From Bacillus xiapuensis (GTDB lineage: Bacteria > Bacillota > Bacilli > Bacillales > Domibacillaceae), in assembly GCF_002797355.1 (NCBI RefSeq), contig NZ_KZ454940.1, positions 248,001 through 312,000 of the forward strand: DNA of 64,000 nucleotides, written 5' to 3'. The first letter of the stretch is position 1; the number at the start of each line of letters is the position of its first letter. Both the position numbers and the translations under genes were made by a program. This document shows, in pieces, positions 24,031 to 33,951 of this stretch. Under the pieces are notes generated by a model. That model did no database searches. It had not been told where the DNA came from and saw nothing but the letters and a program-made list of their open reading frames with translations.

Positions 24031-24089
24031 AAATGATACAAATCCTACTGTTTGAACGCTCACATTCTTATGAAAGAAAGGGAAGAATA

Positions 24090-24692
24090 ATGAAAAGCAG
24101 AGATTCAGGAAAGGTTTTAAAGGAAAGACTCACCAAGCATAAAATGATTGCGGCCATTAAAGAACCAAAATTCATCGAGCAAGCCATCCAGTATAAAAAC
24201 AATTTAAGCGCTGTCTTATTAATGACAGGAACCATACTGACAGTGAAACGGTACGTTGACTACATTCAGTCGCAAGGTCTCCCGGTCATTTTGCATGTAG
24301 AAAAAATAGGCGGATTAGAAATGGACAGAGACGGAATTGAATTTGTCAAAAGAAATGTCCAGCCGTACGGAATTGTCACAACGAGAAATGGGATCATTAA
24401 AAAAGCGAAATCGAGCGGATTATTTGTCGTGCAGCGGGTGTTTTTAATTGACACGGAGGTGTATACGAACCTCATGAAAGATCTTCACCGCATCCAATCA
24501 GATATCATTGAAATCATGCCGTGCCGGGCGCCCGATTTTGTGAACAGAGTATCAGGAGCTTCTCCTGTTCCCGTTATTACAGGAGGACTGCTTAATTCCT
24601 CAGAACATGCCAAGCAAGCATTAGCAAATGGAGCTGCGGCTGTGACAACATCTAACCCAAAGATTTGGAAAATAAATCTGAATACTTTGTAA
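24090..24692 (+). CDS. glpP: GlpP-type glycerol-3-phosphate responsive antiterminator
   Basis: A 200-residue TIM-barrel-like protein of the GlpP family (KMIAAIKEPKFIEQA, SAVLLMTGTILTVKRYVDYIQSQGLPVILHVEKIGGL, IEIMPCRAPDFVNRV, PVITGGLLNSSEHAKQALANGAAAVTTSNPKIW). In B. subtilis GlpP with glycerol-3-phosphate binds leader mRNA of glpFK, glpD and glpTQ and prevents termination. Here no glpF, glpK or glpD follows. Instead a hairpin leader and a Ugp-like ABC operon follow, 250 bases downstream on the same strand, which are the likely target. The ATG at 24090 follows AAGGGAAG. Confidence 0.92.
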   Translation: MKSRDSGKVLKERLTKHKMIAAIKEPKFIEQAIQYKNNLSAVLLMTGTILTVKRYVDYIQSQGLPVILHVEKIGGLEMDRDGIEFVKRNVQPYGIVTTRNGIIKKAKSSGLFVVQRVFLIDTEVYTNLMKDLHRIQSDIIEIMPCRAPDFVNRVSGASPVPVITGGLLNSSEHAKQALANGAAAVTTSNPKIWKINLNTL

Positions 24693-24777
24693 ATAATAAT
24701 TTTACATTAACTTAATACTATCCTAATAATTACTTGTTATGGTATAAGCATCAAGTGAATAATTAATCGGTGCGAGC

Positions 24778-24840
24778 AGAGAGACCACAAATTAGATGTA
24801 TATCACATATATACATTTTATTTGTGGTCTCTCTATTTGT
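24778..24840 (+). promoter_or_regulatory. Leader hairpin, likely GlpP-controlled terminator
   Basis: AGAGAGACCACAAAT pairs perfectly with ATTTGTGGTCTCTCT around a 27-base loop, followed by ATTTGTTT. It lies in a roughly 180-base leader before the solute-binding protein gene. GlpP-controlled leaders of B. subtilis carry such an inverted repeat as the conditional terminator. That GlpP acts here is inferred from adjacency. Confidence 0.68.
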
Positions 24841-24941
24841 TTACACACCGTGCGCGGAGGTGACCTACATTCTTTATCCACACTCACTGTCACTGAACAG
24901 CTGAATGGCAGCAAACCATCCATTTATGAAGGAGGAACAAA

Positions 24942-26246
24942 ATGAAGTCCTATGTAAAATTACTTAGCTTGCTTTCATTCCTATTGCTATTGGCGGCTTG
25001 CGGCAAATCTGGAGATGCCACATCAGCTGATGGAAAAACCACGGAAGACGGAAAGACAGTTATTGAATACTGGCATGTCAATGCGGAGACCCAGGGTGGG
25101 AATACAGTCGAAGAGTTAGTGAAGGAATTCAATGAACAAAGCAAAACCACGAAGGTTGTCGCTAAGTATAATCCGGATATGTATAAAGGCCTGATGCAAA
25201 ACTTGCAAGCGGAAGCGGCCGCTGGAAAGTCTCCCGCTGTCGTCCAAGTCGGATGGGCTTTTTTGGACTACTTTTCCAGCAACTTCAGCTACACATCTCC
25301 TCAAGAAGTAATAGATAAGCACGCGCCAGAAGACCAATCGTTTTTAAAAGACAACTTTTTAAATAATGTCATGGACTTAGCAAAAAATTCTGAAGAAAAA
25401 CAAGTCGGCATACCATACTCGTTAAGCACACCGGTTTTGTACATTAACAAGGATCTGTTGAAAAAAGCCGGTCTGGAGGAGAACGGTCCTAAAACATGGC
25501 AAGAAGTGAAAGAATTTTCAAAAGTGATCAAAGAGAAAACAGGAAAATACGGCTTCTATATGCAAGAACCGGCTGATAACTGGGCAACTCAGGCTTTATT
25601 AGAAAGCAACGGCGCCCGCATGCTGAAGGATGGAAAAGCTTCTTTCGCATCAAAAGAAGGAATTGAAGCTTACAAACTGCTGGCCGATATGGTGGTCAAG
25701 GATAAAACCGCTCTTCATGTTCCATGGGATCAAGGCGTGCAAAGTTTTATCGACGGAAATGTTGCTATGGCGTACACAACAATCGCCCGCCGCTCGCAAA
25801 TACAAGAGAATGTGAAATTTAAGGCCGCCGCTATTAAATCTCCGGCTTGGGAAGGAAAAGAAGTAAGATTGCCGGCTGGCGGAGCGATGCTTGCAATAAC
25901 AGCGCAAGAAGAGAGCCAGCAAAAAGCGGCTTGGGAATTTATGAAATATTTATACAGCGTAGAATCCATGGCGAAGTGGACAGAAGGCACTGGCTATGTC
26001 CCGCCCCGCAAAGATGTGGCGGAAGCAGAAAATGGCCTGAAGGCATTCTTGGAAGAAAATGAAATGATGAAAGCAGCTGTTGAACAAATGGACGGTGTCG
26101 TTTCTTGGACATCCTTCCCCGGCAATGCAGGCTTGCAGGCCGAACAATTACTGCTGGACATCCGCGACCAGATCCTCGGCGGAAAAACCGGCGTAGAAGA
26201 AGGATTAAAGTCAACTGAAAAAGAGATCAATCAGTTATTGAAGTAA
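24942..26246 (+). CDS. ABC transporter solute-binding lipoprotein, UgpB-like
   Basis: A 434-residue lipoprotein with lipobox LAAC (Cys near residue 20) and a family 1 (UgpB/MalE-type) fold: VIEYWHVNAETQGGNTVEELVKEFNEQ, GIPYSLSTPVLYINKDLLKKAGL, and the C-terminal AAWEFMKYLYSVESMAKWTEGTGYVPPRKD block, strong in glycerol-3-phosphate binding proteins. It should capture G3P or a glycerophosphodiester outside the cell. The ATG at 24942 has GGAGG upstream. A hairpin after it separates it from the permeases, a usual way to make more binding protein than transporter. Substrate inferred from glpP and family resemblance. Confidence 0.88.
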   Translation: MKSYVKLLSLLSFLLLLAACGKSGDATSADGKTTEDGKTVIEYWHVNAETQGGNTVEELVKEFNEQSKTTKVVAKYNPDMYKGLMQNLQAEAAAGKSPAVVQVGWAFLDYFSSNFSYTSPQEVIDKHAPEDQSFLKDNFLNNVMDLAKNSEEKQVGIPYSLSTPVLYINKDLLKKAGLEENGPKTWQEVKEFSKVIKEKTGKYGFYMQEPADNWATQALLESNGARMLKDGKASFASKEGIEAYKLLADMVVKDKTALHVPWDQGVQSFIDGNVAMAYTTIARRSQIQENVKFKAAAIKSPAWEGKEVRLPAGGAMLAITAQEESQQKAAWEFMKYLYSVESMAKWTEGTGYVPPRKDVAEAENGLKAFLEENEMMKAAVEQMDGVVSWTSFPGNAGLQAEQLLLDIRDQILGGKTGVEEGLKSTEKEINQLLK

Positions 26247-26265
26247 TCCAAGCTCCATGAACATC

Positions 26266-26346
26266 TGCAGGGCTGATACTGAAAAGCCAGGAGAGGATTC
26301 CCCCCTCTACCTTGGATATTGGAGGGAAGTCAGCCCTTTTTCTTAA
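26266..26346 (+). terminator. Intercistronic hairpin between binding protein and permease genes
   Basis: AGGGCTGA (26269-26276) pairs with TCAGCCCT near 26331-26338, enclosing a second stem CCAGGAGAGG/CCTCTACCTTGG, then a T run. It is probably a partial terminator or mRNA stabiliser giving excess solute-binding protein. Confidence 0.6.
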
Positions 26347-26380
26347 TTGGTGAATACAAAGCGTGGGAGGAAAGCGCGAC

Positions 26381-27289
26381 ATGCAAGCTGTACAAATTTC
26401 AAAACGGAAATGGACTAAAGATCACTGGAAAGCTTATGGCTTACTGATGCCTTCCTTAGTTATTTTCATACTATTCATGTTTTGGCCGTTTCTTTATACG
26501 ATTTATTTAAGCTTTTTCGATTGGAATATGGTGAAGCCAACTAAAGAATTTGTCGGACTGCAGAATTATGCTGACGTCTTATCGGATCCGGTTACATATA
26601 AAGTGTTTGGCAACACATTGCTCTATATTGCTTTACTGCTGATCATTAATCTCTCGGTTCCCTATCTTTTTGCTTTTGTTCTAGATGTGGCGCTTCATAA
26701 ATTCAGCCAATTTTATAAAGGGGCGATTTTTTTACCGTCTGTGATTTCATTGGTGGTCGGCTCTATATTATTTACGTGGCTCCTTAATCCCGTATCGGGG
26801 CCAGTAGCCATCATTCTCGGCTGGTTAGGCATCGAAATGCCGATTTGGAGCAAGTTAGACGGCTGGGTTATCGTCGTGCTAAGTTTAATCACTTCCTGGA
26901 AAGTGTTTGGCTATAACTTTATCGTTCTATATGCTGCCGTCAACGGCATCTCCCGGGAAGTCATCGAAGCCGCCCGGCTGGACCAAGTCCCTTTATGGAA
27001 AATATTCTTTCATATTGTGCTGCCGATGAGCAGCGCCACAGGTATTTATGTATTGATCATCACCATCGTTCAAGGGCTTCAATATGTATTTACACCAATT
27101 AAAGTCATTACACAAGGCGGCCCCAACTATGCAAGCTCGAATGCGATTTATCATGCTTATCACGAAGCATTTGTATTGTATCGGACAGGACACTCCGCCG
27201 CCTTATCGATTGTAACTATGGTGTTCTTTATCATTTTGCTCATTCTAGAATTTAAGTTTGTAGAAAGAGGAGTCCACTATGCAAACTAA
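26381..27289 (+). CDS. ABC sugar-type permease, UgpA-like
   Basis: A 302-residue permease with six membrane helices and the binding-protein-dependent transport motif ISREVIEAARLDQVPLWKIFFHIVLP (EAA loop) contacting the ATPase. The start at 26381 (MQAVQIS) follows GGGAGG; an ATG at 26363 is upstream of that site. It pairs with the UgpE-like permease, overlapping it by 11 bases. Confidence 0.9.
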   Translation: MQAVQISKRKWTKDHWKAYGLLMPSLVIFILFMFWPFLYTIYLSFFDWNMVKPTKEFVGLQNYADVLSDPVTYKVFGNTLLYIALLLIINLSVPYLFAFVLDVALHKFSQFYKGAIFLPSVISLVVGSILFTWLLNPVSGPVAIILGWLGIEMPIWSKLDGWVIVVLSLITSWKVFGYNFIVLYAAVNGISREVIEAARLDQVPLWKIFFHIVLPMSSATGIYVLIITIVQGLQYVFTPIKVITQGGPNYASSNAIYHAYHEAFVLYRTGHSAALSIVTMVFFIILLILEFKFVERGVHYAN

Positions 27290-28103
27290 CCGGATGGCAG
27301 CGGTACCTTGGCACTTGATTTTTATAGCCGTCGTCTTCATTTTAACTTTTCCGATAATCTTTGCGATCGGCATTTCTTTTAAGCCGCTGCAAGAAGCTTA
27401 TAATAATGCATTGAATTTTATTCCCATTCAACCGACACTCGAGAACTATACAATTTTTTTTGAAAGCATCAATGTTGCCAAGGTTGTCTCGAATACATTT
27501 ATTATCGCAGCGGTCGTGACGTTATTTAAAGTCTTTACCTCCTTTCTGGCAGCCTATGCATTTGTGTTTTTTGATTTTAAAGGAAAAAACATCCTGTATT
27601 TTCTTTTAATCAGCACCATTTTCATTCCTTTTTCCGTCACGATGATTCCCAATTATCTGGTCATCTCGGATCTCGGATTAGCTGACAGTATATGGGGAGT
27701 CATTTTGCCGCAGCTTGCTGATGCGGTTGGGATTTTCTTGCTCAGACAATCGATGAAAACGATCCCTGCCGCTTTAATTGAAGTAGCAAGGCTGGATCAT
27801 CTCGGACATGCGCGCATTATGAAAGACATCGTGCTTCCGCTCGTCAAACCAGCCGTCACATCCACAGGTATCTGGTTTTTCATCCTGTCTTGGAATGAAT
27901 ACGTATGGCCTGTGCTTATATTGAAAACAGTTGATCACTACACATTGCCGCTGGCGCTGCAAATGTACATCAGCTCAGAGGGCGGAACGAACTTTACCGT
28001 TGCCATGGCGGTTGCTGTGATCACCATGATCATCCCCCTCACATTGTATTTGGTATTTCAAAAATATATTATTGGAACATTTACTTCTTCAGGAATTAAG
28101 TAA
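27279..28103 (+). CDS. ABC sugar-type permease, UgpE-like
   Basis: A 274-residue six-helix permease with EAA loop AALIEVARLDHLGHARIMKDIVLPLVKPA and the typical ending WNEYVWPVL...PLALQMYI. It forms the membrane channel with the UgpA-like protein. Its ATG lies inside the end of the previous gene with AGAGGAG upstream. Confidence 0.9.
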   Translation: MQTNRMAAVPWHLIFIAVVFILTFPIIFAIGISFKPLQEAYNNALNFIPIQPTLENYTIFFESINVAKVVSNTFIIAAVVTLFKVFTSFLAAYAFVFFDFKGKNILYFLLISTIFIPFSVTMIPNYLVISDLGLADSIWGVILPQLADAVGIFLLRQSMKTIPAALIEVARLDHLGHARIMKDIVLPLVKPAVTSTGIWFFILSWNEYVWPVLILKTVDHYTLPLALQMYISSEGGTNFTVAMAVAVITMIIPLTLYLVFQKYIIGTFTSSGIK

Positions 28104-28115
28104 AGGCGGGATACT

Positions 28116-29213
28116 GTGAAAGAAATTCAGTTTGAAAATGTATGCAAATCTTACGGAAAAACCGAGGTCGTAAAGGATCTCAGCTTAACAATTAAGAAAG
28201 GCGAGCGTTTAGTTCTCCTCGGCCCCTCAGGATGCGGCAAATCTACGACCTTACGCATGATTGCGGGACTGGAGGATATTACATCAGGTACGCTGTATAT
28301 GGGAGGCCAAAAAGCCAATGACATTCCGAGCGGCGAAAGAAATGTAGCCATGGTGTTTCAGAACTATGCTCTTTACCCTCATATGAATGTGTTGAACAAT
28401 ATTACGTATGGCTTAAAGGTTCAAAAGGTTCCTCCCGAGGAAATCAACCGCCGAACAGACGCCGTGCTGGAAATGCTTCAGTTGAAAGAATACAAAGACC
28501 GTCTGCCAAAAGACTTATCTGGCGGTCAAAGACAAAGAGTAGCCTTAGCTAGAGCCGCCGTTAAGCAGGGAGATTATTTTTTATTGGATGAACCATTGTC
28601 CAATCTGGATGCTCAATTAAGGGTCACAGCACGAAAAGAATTAGTGAAGATCCATGAAACTTATAAACAAACGCTTGTGTACGTGACGCATGACCAAGTA
28701 GAGGCCATGACCGTAGGCGACCGAATTGCCTTAATGTACAAAGGGCGCCTGCAAATGGTGGATACTCCTGAAAATGTCTACCACCGGCCTGTCAATATAT
28801 TCACCGCAAAATTCATTGGTTCTCCTCCAATGAATGTAATCGACATGGCTTATCATAACCAGCACGCGGTGATTGCCAATCAGGAAATTCCGCTCCACCC
28901 GGAATGGAATCGGCTGATTAAAAAGTCCGGCGCACAAAGCTTGGCCTTTGGCATTCGTCCTGAACATATGACTCTATCGAAAAAGCCGCTGCCCCATTGT
29001 ATAAAAGGACACGTAAAATATGTCGAAAATCACGGAAACCGCTATGGCGTCTTTATCGATATGGAAGGAACAGAAATCATCGCCATGAGCGAAACGAAGC
29101 ATTGGACCTCAGGGGAAACCGTATATATTGAACCGAAAGCAGATAAAATTCATCTATTTAATAAGCAAACCACGCAGTCTATTGGCTGCCCATCATCTAT
29201 TGTGGAGGTGTAA
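28116..29213 (+). CDS. ABC transporter ATPase, UgpC/MsmK-like
   Basis: A 365-residue ATPase with Walker A GPSGCGKST, signature LSGGQRQRVALARA, Walker B YFLLDEPLSNLD, and H-loop THDQVEAMT. A C-terminal TOBE-type regulatory domain contains GIRPEHMTLS. It energises the two permeases. It starts 12 bases after the UgpE-like gene with an AAAGGCGGG site. The end SIGCPSSIVEV is ordinary variation. Confidence 0.92.
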   Translation: MKEIQFENVCKSYGKTEVVKDLSLTIKKGERLVLLGPSGCGKSTTLRMIAGLEDITSGTLYMGGQKANDIPSGERNVAMVFQNYALYPHMNVLNNITYGLKVQKVPPEEINRRTDAVLEMLQLKEYKDRLPKDLSGGQRQRVALARAAVKQGDYFLLDEPLSNLDAQLRVTARKELVKIHETYKQTLVYVTHDQVEAMTVGDRIALMYKGRLQMVDTPENVYHRPVNIFTAKFIGSPPMNVIDMAYHNQHAVIANQEIPLHPEWNRLIKKSGAQSLAFGIRPEHMTLSKKPLPHCIKGHVKYVENHGNRYGVFIDMEGTEIIAMSETKHWTSGETVYIEPKADKIHLFNKQTTQSIGCPSSIVEV

Positions 29214-29216
29214 AAC

Positions 29217-30032
29217 ATGAGTAAGAACCTGATATGTTATTCTGATTTAGCCCTTTTATCTCATCATCCTTTTGAAAATACCGATCAACTCATCAAGCAT
29301 GGAGCCGGCAAAGTCGAATTGTTAATGGACGGCCCATGCTGGGATGAGATGGAGGATCTCTTTCAAGAGCTTGCTCCAAAGCTTCAGGCTCTTCCCGTTC
29401 GCTATTCGATTCACCCTCCCGCCTGGGACATTAATTTAACTAGTGAAAACCGAGCTGTGAGGGAAACAGCATTTACTGAATATAAAAAAGCGATTCAATT
29501 GGCTGGCATGATTGATGCCTGTCACGTTGTCATCCATCCCGGATTCTGTTTCTCTCCAGCTTTTGATAAACAAACGGCTCAAAAGCGGGCAGCTCAAATG
29601 ATCAATGAATTGTGCAAAATAGCTGAACCGCTCCAAGTGAAGCTGGCGATTGAAAATGTGGGATACAGCGGAAGCTCTCTTTTCACTCAAGAGGAATATA
29701 CCCGCTTTTTAGACGGCATTGATAAAACAGCAGGCTTTTTAATCGATATTGGGCATGCCAACTTGAATCAATGGGACATTCCCCGGCTAATCAAAGAAAC
29801 AAAAGATCGGCTTTTGGCCTTGCATATTCATGATAACGACGGCATACGCGATGCTCATTGGCCGATCGGCGAAGGAAACATAGAATGGCCGGCTATTTTT
29901 TCAGCGATCAACCAATGTCAATTACCCATAGAACTCATTTTGGAATATGCTCCGGGTACGCCTTTAAATTGGCTGGAAGAAGGGAAGCACATTCTGCAAA
30001 ATGAAATACAAATTAATGAAACAGGAGTATAG
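29217..30032 (+). CDS. Sugar phosphate isomerase/epimerase-type TIM barrel
   Basis: A 271-residue AP-endonuclease-2-fold (xylose isomerase-like) barrel with metal-ligand patterns VIHPGF, LAIENVG, LIDIGHANLNQW, LHIHDNDG and LILEY. Family members isomerise sugars or act on phosphodiesters. It starts 3 bases after the ABC ATPase stop, so it is co-transcribed. With a G3P-type transporter and a HAD phosphatase it may process the imported compound; the exact reaction is not determinable from sequence. Confidence 0.85.
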   Translation: MSKNLICYSDLALLSHHPFENTDQLIKHGAGKVELLMDGPCWDEMEDLFQELAPKLQALPVRYSIHPPAWDINLTSENRAVRETAFTEYKKAIQLAGMIDACHVVIHPGFCFSPAFDKQTAQKRAAQMINELCKIAEPLQVKLAIENVGYSGSSLFTQEEYTRFLDGIDKTAGFLIDIGHANLNQWDIPRLIKETKDRLLALHIHDNDGIRDAHWPIGEGNIEWPAIFSAINQCQLPIELILEYAPGTPLNWLEEGKHILQNEIQINETGV

Positions 30033-30033
30033 T

Positions 30034-30819
30034 ATGATTAACATTCGCGATTTTGACGCCTTTTGTTTTGATTTAGACGGAACGATTTACGTCGGGAACC
30101 AGCTGTTGCCGGGCGTAAAAGAAACAATAGGCTTATTACGGCAGCACCAAAAAAGCATTTTATTTATCACCAATGCACCAACGCAGACGAGGGAAGGGTG
30201 CCAGAAACTGCTTACGTCCTTAGGAGTCGCCGCACAGCTTGAAGAAGTGCTCACCGCTTCCTTCCTATCTGCTGCTTACTTCTTAGAAAACTGCGCAGAT
30301 GCGAGAATTTTTATCGTTGGCGAAAGGGCGCTCCTGCAAGAATTCAGCAATTATTCCTTGCACGTCACAGCCAATCCTTTAGAGGCCACCCATGTGCTGG
30401 TCGGCTTAGACCGCGACTTCTCCTATCAAAAGCTGAACCGCGCGATGAGAGCTGTGCGCAATGGAGCAAAGCTGATTGTAACCAATCCCGATCCGTCCTG
30501 TCCTGTCTCTGAAGGATATATTGCGGATACATTCGCGATCGCCAAAGCAATTGAAGTAGCCGCCGGGCATCCAATTGACCTGGTTATCGGAAAGCCCTCA
30601 TCCTACTACGCAAGAAAAGTAAGCAAGCAGCTGAACATCGCAAATGAGCGATGCCTGATTATCGGTGACCGCCTGGAGACCGATATTTTAATGGGAAAGG
30701 CCAATCAGTTCCGCACGTGCCTCGTCTTAACAGGCGCCTCCAGCAAAGCGGACATAAATAAAATCAAGATTAAGCCAGATTACGTTATTGAGAATTTAAC
30801 AGAATTATTTACGAAATAA
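30034..30819 (+). CDS. HAD-IIA family sugar phosphatase (NagD/glycerol-phosphatase-like)
   Basis: A 261-residue HAD phosphatase: nucleophile motif FCFDLDGTIYVGN near residue 12, motif II FITNAP, cap domain of the NagD/AraL type, motif III GKPSS, and motif IV IIGDRLETDILMGK. Relatives hydrolyse glycerol-1-phosphate, phosphoglycolate or sugar phosphates. The start at 30034 follows AGGAG and sits one base after the TAG of the barrel gene. It is the last gene of the operon. Together they look like an uptake and dephosphorylation route for glycerol phosphates, which is inference. Confidence 0.88.
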   Translation: MINIRDFDAFCFDLDGTIYVGNQLLPGVKETIGLLRQHQKSILFITNAPTQTREGCQKLLTSLGVAAQLEEVLTASFLSAAYFLENCADARIFIVGERALLQEFSNYSLHVTANPLEATHVLVGLDRDFSYQKLNRAMRAVRNGAKLIVTNPDPSCPVSEGYIADTFAIAKAIEVAAGHPIDLVIGKPSSYYARKVSKQLNIANERCLIIGDRLETDILMGKANQFRTCLVLTGASSKADINKIKIKPDYVIENLTELFTK

Positions 30820-31136
30820 ATTAACGCTTGATCAAAGAATCGTCTGCTTTTCTTTGTCCCTCTAATTGTGAAATATAATGGCTGGCAGCGGTAATAACTG
30901 CCTATTTCCGCTGCCAACGAGATTCTATTCACGCATTTTTAATTATTTCCTCCTACACAAACAGCAGGATTTGGTTTTTCAAGGAATAATCCTCACATTT
31001 ATGTAAAAAAAAGATAAAAATTTTTGACAATTAACTACTATTTACCCAATTTATTATAGTCATATTGAAATAAACGCTCCTTTATCTTAAGATAATACAA
31101 GGTATTAAAACAAATAAATAACAGGTATATATGGAA

Positions 31137-31232
31137 GTTAAAGGCAAACTGCCTGAAAGGGTAGGACGCAAAGCCTAGGGTCTAAGGTTTTATTGAAAAA
31201 ACTATGATCGCCTGGCTACCAAGTTAAGCACA
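31137..31232 (+). ncRNA. c-di-GMP-I (GEMM) riboswitch aptamer
   Basis: The aptamer core is plain: AAAGGCAAACTGCC, GAAA tetraloop, GGTAGGACGCAAAGCC, then TAGGGTCTAAGG, an AT-rich variable hairpin, and ATGATCGCCTGGCTACC. Helix CTGCC/GGGTAG closes the GAAA loop, and the receptor CTAAGG...ATGATCG is in place. This class binds the second messenger cyclic di-GMP. A terminator follows 17 bases later, so the riboswitch controls transcription of the downstream DNA-binding protein gene. Whether ligand turns it on or off is not settled by sequence alone. Confidence 0.92.
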
Positions 31233-31248
31233 TGTTTATGAAAAATTT

Positions 31249-31281
31249 GGCTGTTCTATCCTGTATAGAACGGCTTTTTTA
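31249..31281 (+). terminator. Riboswitch expression platform (terminator)
   Basis: GCTGTTCTAT pairs with ATAGAACGGC around CCTGT, followed by six T residues, 38 bases before the start of the controlled gene. Confidence 0.88.
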
Positions 31282-31318
31282 ATTTTCAGACTTATTTATA
31301 CATGAGGTGATTTTGGAA

Positions 31319-31906
31319 TTGCGAAAAGAGTGGAACACAGAAGAAGTAGAATATTTAAAGGAAAATGTCGGCTTTCATAACCTTGCCAAAATGGCTGACA
31401 AGCTCGGGCGGTCCTTTGAATCTGTCCGCATTAAAATGCACCGCATCGGGCTTTCTAATACGAAGTCACAGACAGGCTTGATTACAGCTGGTGAACTGGC
31501 AAAAATCCTGCAGGTGGACCGCAACACGGTTAAATGGTGGATGAAGAAATACGGGCTGCCGTGCAAAAAGAAAGTTACGCGAAAATCAAAACAATTTTAT
31601 TTCATCGATCCGCGTACATTTTGGGAATGGGCGTCGGGTCATAAAGAAAAGGTGGTCTTCTCCCGAATTCCCCCGCACGCCCTGCCCCCTGAGCCTGATT
31701 GGGTCACACAAGAAAGGCGAAAAGAAACCTTTCACCAGCTGTGTAAGCAAAGGCCTTATAAGCCTTGGACGACGAAAGAAGATCAGAAACTGATCGAGCT
31801 TCGGCAGAAAGGACTGACTTACGCGGAAATTGGCGAACAAATGAACCGAACCGCGAACAGCGTCATCAGAAGATATAGCCGCTTAAAGAAAGAGGTCAGA
31901 CAATAA
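31319..31906 (+). CDS. Myb/SANT-like and excisionase-like DNA-binding protein under riboswitch control
   Basis: A 195-residue protein with three probable DNA-binding units: an N-terminal Myb-like helix set (WNTEEVEYLKENVGFHNLAKMADKLGRSFESVRIKMHRIGL), a central MerR/excisionase-type HTH (ITAGELAKILQVDRNTVKWWMKKYGLP), and a C-terminal Myb-like unit (WTTKEDQKLIELRQKGLTYAEIGEQMNRTANSVIRRYSRL). TTG at 31319 is preferred: GAGGTGA (31304-31310) is 8 bases upstream. GTG at 31307 lies within that site. It is a likely transcription regulator made in response to c-di-GMP and lies next to the flagellinolysin gene. I do not recognise a named orthologue; target genes unknown. Confidence 0.82.
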   Translation: MRKEWNTEEVEYLKENVGFHNLAKMADKLGRSFESVRIKMHRIGLSNTKSQTGLITAGELAKILQVDRNTVKWWMKKYGLPCKKKVTRKSKQFYFIDPRTFWEWASGHKEKVVFSRIPPHALPPEPDWVTQERRKETFHQLCKQRPYKPWTTKEDQKLIELRQKGLTYAEIGEQMNRTANSVIRRYSRLKKEVRQ

Positions 31907-32124: not shown

Positions 32125-33750
32125 TTAGGCCAACAGCCGAAGCACATTTTGCGGGTGATTGTTCGCTTGAGCAAGCAACGCCTGCGCCGCTTGCGCCAAA
32201 ACGGACTTCTTGAATTGCTCCATCATCTCTTTCGCCATATCCGCCTCGCGGATGCGCGATTCAGCTGCTGTTATATTTTCTTCTGTGATCGCCGATACAG
32301 CGATCGCCCTTTCAAGCCGGTTTTGATAAGCCCCCAGCCTTGAACGCTGCGCGGAAGCAGCCGCAATGGCCCCATCCAAAATGGAAAGATTATCGGTTGA
32401 TTTGTTTAACAAATCAACCGCCGTAATGCCTAAAGAGGAACTGGTCGCATTCGCCAGCTCAATCTCTATAGACGGACCGATGCGCATCTTATTCATCTGG
32501 TTATCAGATGAATTTTGCCATTTTTCTGAAAATGATTCCAATGGATTGGATAAGTTTGCGTTTTCTATATCTGGAATTACAGAATAATCATCTCCTCCTC
32601 CGATTGCACCAGTATCCGCATCCCCCAGAACAATGCCTGAATTAGCCAGTGTGGCGTTAGCTTTAAAATCAGCGATAAAACCGGCTGTATCCATACCAAT
32701 TAAGTCGTTCAGCGCCTCGTCCAATGTTTTTTCCTTCCCGCCAAGGCTGCTTAATTTCATTTCGTTGAAAAGAGCTCTCATCTCGCCTGCGATTTCCGCG
32801 TTTAAGTATTTGACAGCAGCATAACCAGCAGAATAATCAGCGCTTGTGCTGTTCCAGGCGTCAATATTCTTCTTCAAGGCATTAAAGTCATTTCCCGCTG
32901 CCGCTAAATCGTTAGCCAAGCGTTCATCCGCCCCCGCAATAAATTCCGCAGCTCCTTCTTTAAACCAAGTAGGCAAGTCGCGAAAATTCATCGTTCTTCC
33001 CATTACCGCATGCACCATTTCATGAGCAATAATCCGGTCATTCGAGATCCATGAGCCTCCGCCATTGGGCATTTCCACAGGGGAAAAGTCGCTCATATCC
33101 AGCACCAGCTTTTGATTAAAATAACGGCCATCGCTGCCGCTCGGATAATAGGAGCCTTGCACCCAAGCGACACGGCCGTCCCCCGAGTTTTGAACAAACT
33201 GAATGTCAAGCGGGGCATCATCCGCTGCAGCCTGCAGCCCATATTGGCCGGAAATCAACTTCTCACTGTTGGTTAGCCAATACTTTTGAAGCGCCTCTGC
33301 TGCCGCTTTTTGTTGATCACTGGCCGCTTCTGATGTCACATTTAACAGCTTAATCGTATTAAATTCAGTGGTGTTCGCAATCCGGTTCACTTCCTCAACG
33401 ATCTCGTCCCATTCCATTTTAATCGCTTTCCGGTCACTCTCAGCCAGGGTATCATTTTCAGCCTGTACCGCTAGCTCCCGCCCGCGCTGAAGCAGTGCAT
33501 GAATTTCATTTAATCCGCCCTCAGCCGTTTGCAGCAAGGAAATGCCATCTTGCATATTCCGCTGTTCTTGAGACAGCTCGCGGATCTGTCCGCGCATTTT
33601 TTCAGAAATCGCCAGCCCTGCGGCATCATCCCCCGCACGATTTATGCGCAGCCCGGACGATAGCCTCTCCAGCGTTTTGTGTTGCAGTTTTTTTGCTTGA
33701 TTGAGCTGAAGGTATGACTGTAACGCCATCCTATTGTGCCGAACGATCAT
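32125..33750 (-). CDS. Flagellinolysin: flagellin with inserted zinc metallopeptidase
   Basis: A 541-residue flagellin. The N-terminal D0/D1 region (about 1-140: [50 protein letters not shown]) and the C-terminal D1/D0 region (about 430-541: [35 protein letters not shown]) are complete. The central variable domain is replaced by a gluzincin-type peptidase with HEMVH near residue 244 and a downstream glutamate in WFKEGAAEF 22 residues later, the third ligand. Such flagellinolysins are known from several motile bacteria and form filaments with surface protease activity. It is a single gene with ribosome site GGGAGG and its own terminator. It sits next to the c-di-GMP-controlled regulator and the glycosylation island. 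I see no CsrA-like site in its leader. Confidence 0.95.
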   Translation of the reverse strand: MIVRHNRMALQSYLQLNQAKKLQHKTLERLSSGLRINRAGDDAAGLAISEKMRGQIRELSQEQRNMQDGISLLQTAEGGLNEIHALLQRGRELAVQAENDTLAESDRKAIKMEWDEIVEEVNRIANTTEFNTIKLLNVTSEAASDQQKAAAEALQKYWLTNSEKLISGQYGLQAAADDAPLDIQFVQNSGDGRVAWVQGSYYPSGSDGRYFNQKLVLDMSDFSPVEMPNGGGSWISNDRIIAHEMVHAVMGRTMNFRDLPTWFKEGAAEFIAGADERLANDLAAAGNDFNALKKNIDAWNSTSADYSAGYAAVKYLNAEIAGEMRALFNEMKLSSLGGKEKTLDEALNDLIGMDTAGFIADFKANATLANSGIVLGDADTGAIGGGDDYSVIPDIENANLSNPLESFSEKWQNSSDNQMNKMRIGPSIEIELANATSSSLGITAVDLLNKSTDNLSILDGAIAAASAQRSRLGAYQNRLERAIAVSAITEENITAAESRIREADMAKEMMEQFKKSVLAQAAQALLAQANNHPQNVLRLLA

Positions 33751-33951
33751 CTATTTCCTCCCTTCTATTTTTTTATAGTCATTTAGATCCTTTGACCAAT
33801 GACTATACACGCATGATTATACCTCATTTATTCGAGTGAATTCGACATTTTTTTCAGAATGCTAATTAAATCCAATAAATTAACCGAATTGTCCGTTAAT
33901 TTATTTTGGAACACTGAGAAGCTTGGGACTAACCATTGAAGGCAAACAATA

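Follow-up and report, generated by a model that had tools for sequence, protein, structure and literature searches.

A c-di-GMP-I riboswitch is paired with a phage-type Myb-winged HTH-Myb regulator near motility genes in Bacillales, a candidate relay from c-di-GMP to motility

The shut-off of swimming by c-di-GMP in Gram-positive bacteria is understood only in part. To our knowledge, most of the c-di-GMP outputs described are either PilZ proteins or riboswitches placed on single effector genes. Among the c-di-GMP-I riboswitches, Vc2 contacts its ligand through G20, A47 and C92, for which the equivalents in Bc1 are G11, A38 and C81, and by this correspondence a CC in the 3' tail of the aptamer contacts the ligand (accessible text of PMC11218506). 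Bc1, which lies before an MCP gene of B. thuringiensis, acted as an ON switch in a B. subtilis reporter and was unresponsive in its host, according to the same text (PMC11218506). In B. methanolicus, c-di-GMP riboswitches precede genes of unknown function, as stated in the available part of PMC4342826.

Only one Rfam family reached its gathering threshold in the window, the 64-kb stretch of DNA analysed here. This was RF01051, the c-di-GMP-I (GEMM-I) riboswitch aptamer, which a preliminary description of this DNA had expected and which matched 31133-31223 (+) over the full length of the model (positions 1-87) with 81.1 bits against a gathering value of 35 (E 2.2e-14). Our own covariance model R1, which was built from 30 aptamers and has this one in its seed, scores it at 88.3 bits. 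We found that GGCAAAC, GGACGCAAAG and the CC of the tail align to the RF01051 consensus and that the ligand-contact nucleotides equivalent to Vc2 G20, A47 and C92 are kept, with the A47 equivalent assigned to no single A. Judged by its sequence, the RNA belongs to riboswitch class RF01051 and is predicted to bind c-di-GMP.

The transcript carrying riboswitch and regulator would start from a putative sigma-A-like promoter at 31065-31093 (+), a consensus match that reads TTGAAA-17-TAAGAT. The promoter keeps its position in the leaders aligned from four members of the genus and from one pseudogene, and its version in G002 is TTGATA-17-TACGAT. Downstream of the aptamer lies an intrinsic terminator (31246-31280, +), an 11-bp hairpin of -13.3 kcal/mol followed by a T run, and thus both an aptamer and a U-tailed hairpin stand ahead of the regulator gene, as previously claimed. 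In the proposed antiterminator (31219-31250, +) the aptamer tail CCAAGTT (31219-31225) would pair with AATTTGG (31244-31250) to form 7 bp including a G-U pair, with a non-significant p=0.14 for this leader taken alone, and the terminator folds whether or not this pairing is present. The computed pairing probability of the tail is 0.94 before the right arm of the terminator is made and 0.20 with the full hairpin.

The regulator gene occupies 31319-31906 (+). The longest reading frame called by program starts at GTG 31307 and ends at 31906 (199 aa), and the alignment of leaders from four intact orthologues and one pseudogene favours the TTG at 31319, behind GAGGTG; with this start the regulator has 195 aa. 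Its C-terminal Myb domain matches PF00249 at residues 153-192 of the 199-aa frame (E 2.2e-8, 34.5 bits against a cut-off of 24.4). The middle HTH is of the MerR_1 type (PF13411, 26.3 bits against a cut-off of 21.6), an assignment that concerns the HTH domain alone and not the effector part of full MerR regulators, and 10 of 34 family members match the NCBIfam model 'excise' at E <= 0.001. In an AlphaFold2 model (mean pLDDT 85.4, pTM 0.52) this HTH is winged, with helices at 57-64 and 68-77 and strands at 83-87 and 91-96. No separate Pfam match covers the N-terminal Myb-like unit, which is recognised on the basis of fold only, from three helices (7-16, 22-29 and 33-42) in the same model. The arrangement given in the preliminary description, two Myb-like units around an excisionase-like HTH, is therefore borne out by PF00249, PF13411 and the predicted fold. 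PDB sequence searches with the regulator returned weak Myb matches alone. The protein was also considered as a sigma-70 factor and rejected, as TIGR02937 reached 28 bits against a cut-off of 42.9 and covered the C-terminal HTH only. We found no model specific to the regulator family in Pfam or NCBIfam, just general HTH and Myb models, while PHROGs gives a phage family, PHROG 323 'transcriptional regulator, D5-like', as its best match (E 5.4e-26; two stretches, best 6-89); this agrees with the earlier statement that the family seems to have no described function. The regulator is present in single copy in this genome, which has six GGDEF matches, one of them weak.

A homologue of the regulator was found in 18 of 61 genomes, its own included, and across the order matches at E <= 1e-20, long forms counted, occur in 51 of 397 genomes and 21 of 135 genera. 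An aptamer precedes the regulator in all five genomes of the genus. These five carry 22 aptamers, three of them in this genome, and the downstream gene was inspected for 20. Scanning the named genomes gave 56 regulator loci (455 kb), and R1 found 29 aptamers in 23 of them, a count that includes several seed aptamers which match by construction and which Rfam found independently. All 29 lie on the strand of the regulator; 17 of the 23 loci have an aptamer upstream and six have one downstream only. The upstream aptamer of L147 is weak (28 bits), and Rfam finds none at E <= 1 in the same locus (L014). In control DNA (400 kb, taken from four genomes as 20 stretches at fixed positions) a single aptamer was found, against the 29 in 455 kb of regulator loci. 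No aptamer was found by R1 within 2.5 kb of the regulator in three phage loci and one plasmid locus. At the level of genome sequence, the pairing of aptamer and regulator is real and conserved.

Aptamers were also seen directly 3' of the regulator stop codon (L142:4564-4671, L150:4571-4869, L151, L140, L144 and L160). In L150 and L151, and also in L090, tandem aptamers stand ahead of a 54-aa ORF that has a good Shine-Dalgarno sequence; the aptamer behind the regulator in L142, L144 and L160 is followed by a GC-rich hairpin without a clear gene.

We placed 55 regulator sequences on a FastTree phylogeny, leaving out L163, L165, L172 (truncated, and aptamer-linked), L174, L178 and L180; the tree is rooted at its midpoint and the root is not secure. 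One Bacillales clade of 34 tips (support 0.937) contains every aptamer-linked tip. An aptamer on the strand of the regulator is present in the locus for 23 of the 34 clade tips, the window included, versus 0 of the 21 tips outside. Among the clade tips, 17 have it upstream (the window included; one weak), six have it downstream only and 11 have none in the locus. The outside tips are phages, a plasmid, prophage-like copies, Paenibacillus, Clostridia-type and other sequences, and long Domibacillus forms. Homologues occur in eight phage and 38 plasmid records, one of them the SANT-annotated protein WAB25092.1 of the Lysinibacillus phage LysYB1 (38.9% identity over 88% of the query), and a Foldseek search of viral models has phage proteins as its best matches (E 2.1e-11 and 1.4e-8). 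Two loci outside the clade, L154 and L156, look prophage-like by eye. The Bacillales clade may thus be of phage origin, on a root that is not secure.

These relatives, together with PHROG 323 as the closest named family, are what would be expected if the regulator were a stray or domesticated phage-type transcription factor, for which c-di-GMP is a mere growth-state cue and whose targets, for instance mobile elements, are unrelated to motility; its neighbours would then share aptamer control and not function. We consider this rather improbable, since the members linked to aptamers and motility genes fall into a single clade, outside of which no tip has an aptamer in the stretch analysed, and since several genera show arrangements with motAB and chemotaxis genes.

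These gene orders were read on the strand of the regulator, with transcription units predicted and with genes named by Pfam in some cases and by script HMMs in the rest. In Melghiribacillus (L138) the order is aptamer-motA-motB-regulator. In Oceanobacillus salinisoli (L135) it is aptamer, a 96-aa gene, aptamer and regulator, with motA-motB about 0.9 kb further on and then an aptamer before a GTP cyclohydrolase-like gene. Alkalihalobacillus (L134) has aptamer-EAL-CheY-like-regulator followed by a 4HB/HAMP receptor gene, inside which the contig ends. We also found regulator-MCP-CheW in L133, aptamer-regulator-EAL-MCP in Cytobacillus citreus (L128) and aptamer-EAL-regulator in Calidifontibacillus (L130). 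In Metabacillus an HD-domain gene comes directly after the regulator (L139) or one small ORF later (L152). In G214 (L092) the order is aptamer-regulator-aptamer, then a frame of just 70 codons named motA-like by eye.

Counting genes of the MCP, EAL, GGDEF, CheY, CheW, MotA/B and HD families with script HMMs, we found 36 in 297 kb around 36 regulator loci and three in 400 kb of control DNA (20 stretches), that is 12.1 versus 0.75 per 100 kb. At least one such gene is present in 21 of the 36 loci. This excess of about 16-fold has to be taken with caution, because the families were chosen after the neighbours had been seen, the HMM seeds come from the same loci, these are not independent of one another, and four genomes supplied the control. 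The loci counted were L125-L165 minus L158, L159 and L161-L163, with L166-L180 left out, and they include L154 and L156 from outside the clade. Long response regulators, two near the regulator and three in the control, were set aside. The earlier claim of a c-di-GMP-controlled DNA-binding regulator tied to motility thus holds to the extent that links to an aptamer, motAB, MCP, CheY or CheW, and EAL or HD genes recur across genera. In the window itself the regulator is adjoined by a HAD-type phosphatase gene and by a candidate flagellinolysin gene, and no gene of the counted families is adjacent. Before the riboswitch, at 24033-30819, lie a gene for a glycerol-3-phosphate-type antiterminator (PF04309), a HAD phosphatase-like gene and, by resemblance, an ABC transporter set; G002 and G004 retain some of these genes on the upstream side of the regulator.

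The direction of the switch was approached through the pairing of the aptamer tail with the terminator. Over 18 leaders the mean best-helix score was 12.86 for the tail against its own hairpin and 10.63 against permuted hairpins (p=0.0004), and after thinning to 15 leaders p was 0.003. The 18 include some leaders that are not directly before the regulator (before EAL, MCP, GTP cyclohydrolase-like and 96-aa genes) and one aptamer positioned after a regulator. The leader of the Melghiribacillus motAB genes scored low, at 7.5, because the automatic window omitted the UUG before the left arm; by eye a GCCAA/UUGGC pairing can be read there. Striking pairings of tail and terminator are seen in Alkalihalobacillus (CCGUAAUGAA/UUUAUUACGG) and in G214 (ACCGAAAAGGU/AUCUUUUUGGU), and the G214 tail alternatively forms P1 with the 5' flank, as read by eye. 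In a shuffling test 11 of 27 leaders had p<0.05, and the combined Fisher value of 4.5e-10 is overstated because several leaders are near-identical and from one genus.

Leaders were also folded with the aptamer constrained. The expected number of terminator pairs went up in all seven leaders folded, a method that leans towards an OFF result because the ligand-mimicking constraint frees the tail by construction. The rise was from 0.3 to 8.2 in G002, 6.6 to 10.7 in G125, 7.7 to 10.8 in G027 and 8.7 to 10.2 in G003; little change was seen in the leader of the window (11.1 to 12.9), in G214 (12.5 to 12.8) and in G001 (0.1 to 1.8). The fit of the tails to their own terminators and the constrained folding together point to c-di-GMP as an OFF signal, which we hold to be probable for the leaders of the regulator family and less so for the leader of the window. 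If the preliminary description meant that c-di-GMP activates the regulator, this is doubtful, as by both measures the leaders resemble OFF switches.

The opposite direction has a precedent in Bc1, a Bacillus c-di-GMP-I riboswitch reported to switch a B. subtilis reporter on (PMC11218506, in the text accessible), and the weak antiterminator of the window's own leader also speaks for it. In that case c-di-GMP would favour read-through and the regulator would work in the sessile state, for example by repressing motility genes. We regard this as unlikely, given that the bound form has more terminator pairing in 7/7 terminator-type leaders, by a method biased in this direction, and that the fit of a tail is better to its own terminator than to permuted hairpins. 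A motAB pair also shares the aptamer, and from general knowledge an OFF switch suits stator genes better.

The preliminary description suggested a circuit in which the regulator adjusts filament composition or modification through the adjacent flagellinolysin gene and the flagellin glycosylation genes. The flagellinolysin candidate (32125-33750, -) has the flagellin N and C domains (PF00669 and PF00700) with HEMVH at residue 243, and its insert has no Pfam match at 1e-5; the name follows PMC5595980, of which the text was available in part. The gene does adjoin the regulator in the window, and in G001 a flagellinolysin gene is also found beside a regulator copy. The two genes are convergent, and flagellinolysin recurs in just one (G001) of 20 relative loci mapped. 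The G001 regulator copy next to it is a fragment with two stops, next to a full flagellinolysin frame of 541 aa, and the 20-kb loci of G002, G003 and G004 keep the regulator and contain no flagellinolysin. The fragment, together with an aptamer, lies in L026 (G001:C43:78535-81726), a stretch that also has pieces of a group II intron, and an intact G001 copy lies about 11 kb away.

Binding sites were sought as well. A 9-base half-site, TATAGTCAT, is common to the promoter region of the regulator and the flagellinolysin leader, which would fit control of the one by the other. The -35 block of the relatives' regulator promoters, TTTAGGCTTATTGATATG (<=2 mismatches), has one match each in G001, G002 and G004, where it precedes the regulator, and one in G003 that lies elsewhere, and has none in G000; a control with the reversed pattern gave similar counts (one each in G000, G002 and G004, two in G003, none in G001). 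The flagellinolysin leader holds a 10-bp inverted repeat, TATAGTCATT/AATGACTATA (33774-33807), of which there is one copy in this genome and none in four relatives. With neither the promoter block nor this repeat did we find a further site at a different motility gene, and no shared operator or regulon was found from them. We thus see no support for an effect of the regulator on filament composition or glycosylation: the flagellinolysin gene is convergent with it, only G001 among the 20 relative loci mapped shares that gene, and the adjacent regulator copy there is broken. We hold control of these genes by the regulator to be very improbable.

Other genes are linked to aptamers of the same class. 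In this genome a second aptamer, of the GGC type, stands ahead of a gene for a 101-aa protein (L001:1137-1442, -; G000:C1:1605714-1606166). This protein shares 49% identity with the small protein whose gene immediately precedes that of the regulator in Domibacillus-type loci. No model was matched at cut-off in a Pfam scan of two members or an NCBIfam scan of 24, a PDB sequence search gave nothing convincing, and the structure model consists of helices only and bears no clear resemblance to other folds. Of the 397 genomes from the order, 53 carry the family, which lies behind an aptamer in 10 of 20 loci examined. It co-occurs with the regulator in nine genomes against about 6.8 expected across the order; this is not beyond chance, and the small protein is therefore not an obligate partner of the regulator. 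A switch acting on translation was considered for the small-protein genes, as their leaders can sequester the start codon. On constrained folding, the opening of the SD-start region fell by at least 0.03 in seven of 14 such leaders, rose by 0.07 in one and changed by 0.01 or less in six, with the two states poorly separated. The third aptamer of this genome precedes a gene for an ATP-grasp protein (PF13535, L003:1502-2809), and an ATP-grasp-like protein, named by eye, is also encoded behind an aptamer in G001, G002 and G004. In two genera an aptamer stands beside the regulator before a GTP cyclohydrolase I-like gene, so named by sequence resemblance and not by family search (L149:4941-5027 and L135:7326-7409).

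Our data are best accommodated, we believe with some reservation, by a two-step relay in which a c-di-GMP-I OFF riboswitch controls a DNA-binding regulator and the regulator controls motility and chemotaxis genes. At low c-di-GMP the 3' tail of the aptamer would pair with the terminator region, and read-through would allow the regulator to be made. At high c-di-GMP the ligand would keep the tail in the aptamer, so that the terminator forms and the regulator is off. The targets of the regulator would be motility and chemotaxis genes, and it would most probably either activate the swimming state that goes with low c-di-GMP or repress sessile genes. More tentatively, we propose that Bacillales took over an undescribed phage-type Myb-wHTH-Myb family as a dedicated c-di-GMP-to-motility relay under an OFF switch, often in one unit with motAB, chemotaxis genes and phosphodiesterases. 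One messenger might thereby set the parts of the motor together with the transcription factor that serves them, and the EAL and HD genes in the unit might provide feedback. If the relay is correct, riboswitch control of a transcription factor whose gene accompanies motAB, chemotaxis receptors and phosphodiesterases would add a layer of amplifying regulation to a large group of bacteria from soil and sea. The relay would also assign a function to a family of phage-type regulators that had no specific curated model in our searches.

MogR and other motility regulators of Bacillus and Listeria would act at the same biological switch as the one proposed for this regulator. We know of no c-di-GMP riboswitch that controls MogR, and no MogR model is among the Pfam and NCBIfam matches listed for the regulator. 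The phage proteins of PHROG 323 and LysYB1 are homologous to the regulator; unlike these phage forms, the Bacillales clade is aptamer-linked and near motility genes, whereas three phage forms and one plasmid form fall outside it. Unlike Myb/SANT repeat proteins, the regulator has a winged MerR/excisionase-type HTH between its Myb-like units, and since alignments with both units give an rmsd of about 17 A the arrangement of the units differs from that in the repeat proteins. Titles and abstract openings in the literature searched held no description of the regulator family or of its linkage to motAB under a riboswitch; within that literature the riboswitch class is known, and its pairing with a phage-type regulator near motility genes appears to be new. 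The riboswitch shares with c-di-GMP-I riboswitches such as Bc1 the aptamer structure, the ligand-contact nucleotides and the terminator of the expression platform, and an association with chemotaxis genes is common to Bc1 and the present loci. Unlike Bc1, which precedes an MCP gene, the present aptamer precedes a predicted DNA-binding regulator, alone or with motAB, EAL or CheY genes, and is predicted to be an OFF switch where Bc1 was ON in the reporter (accessible text of PMC11218506).
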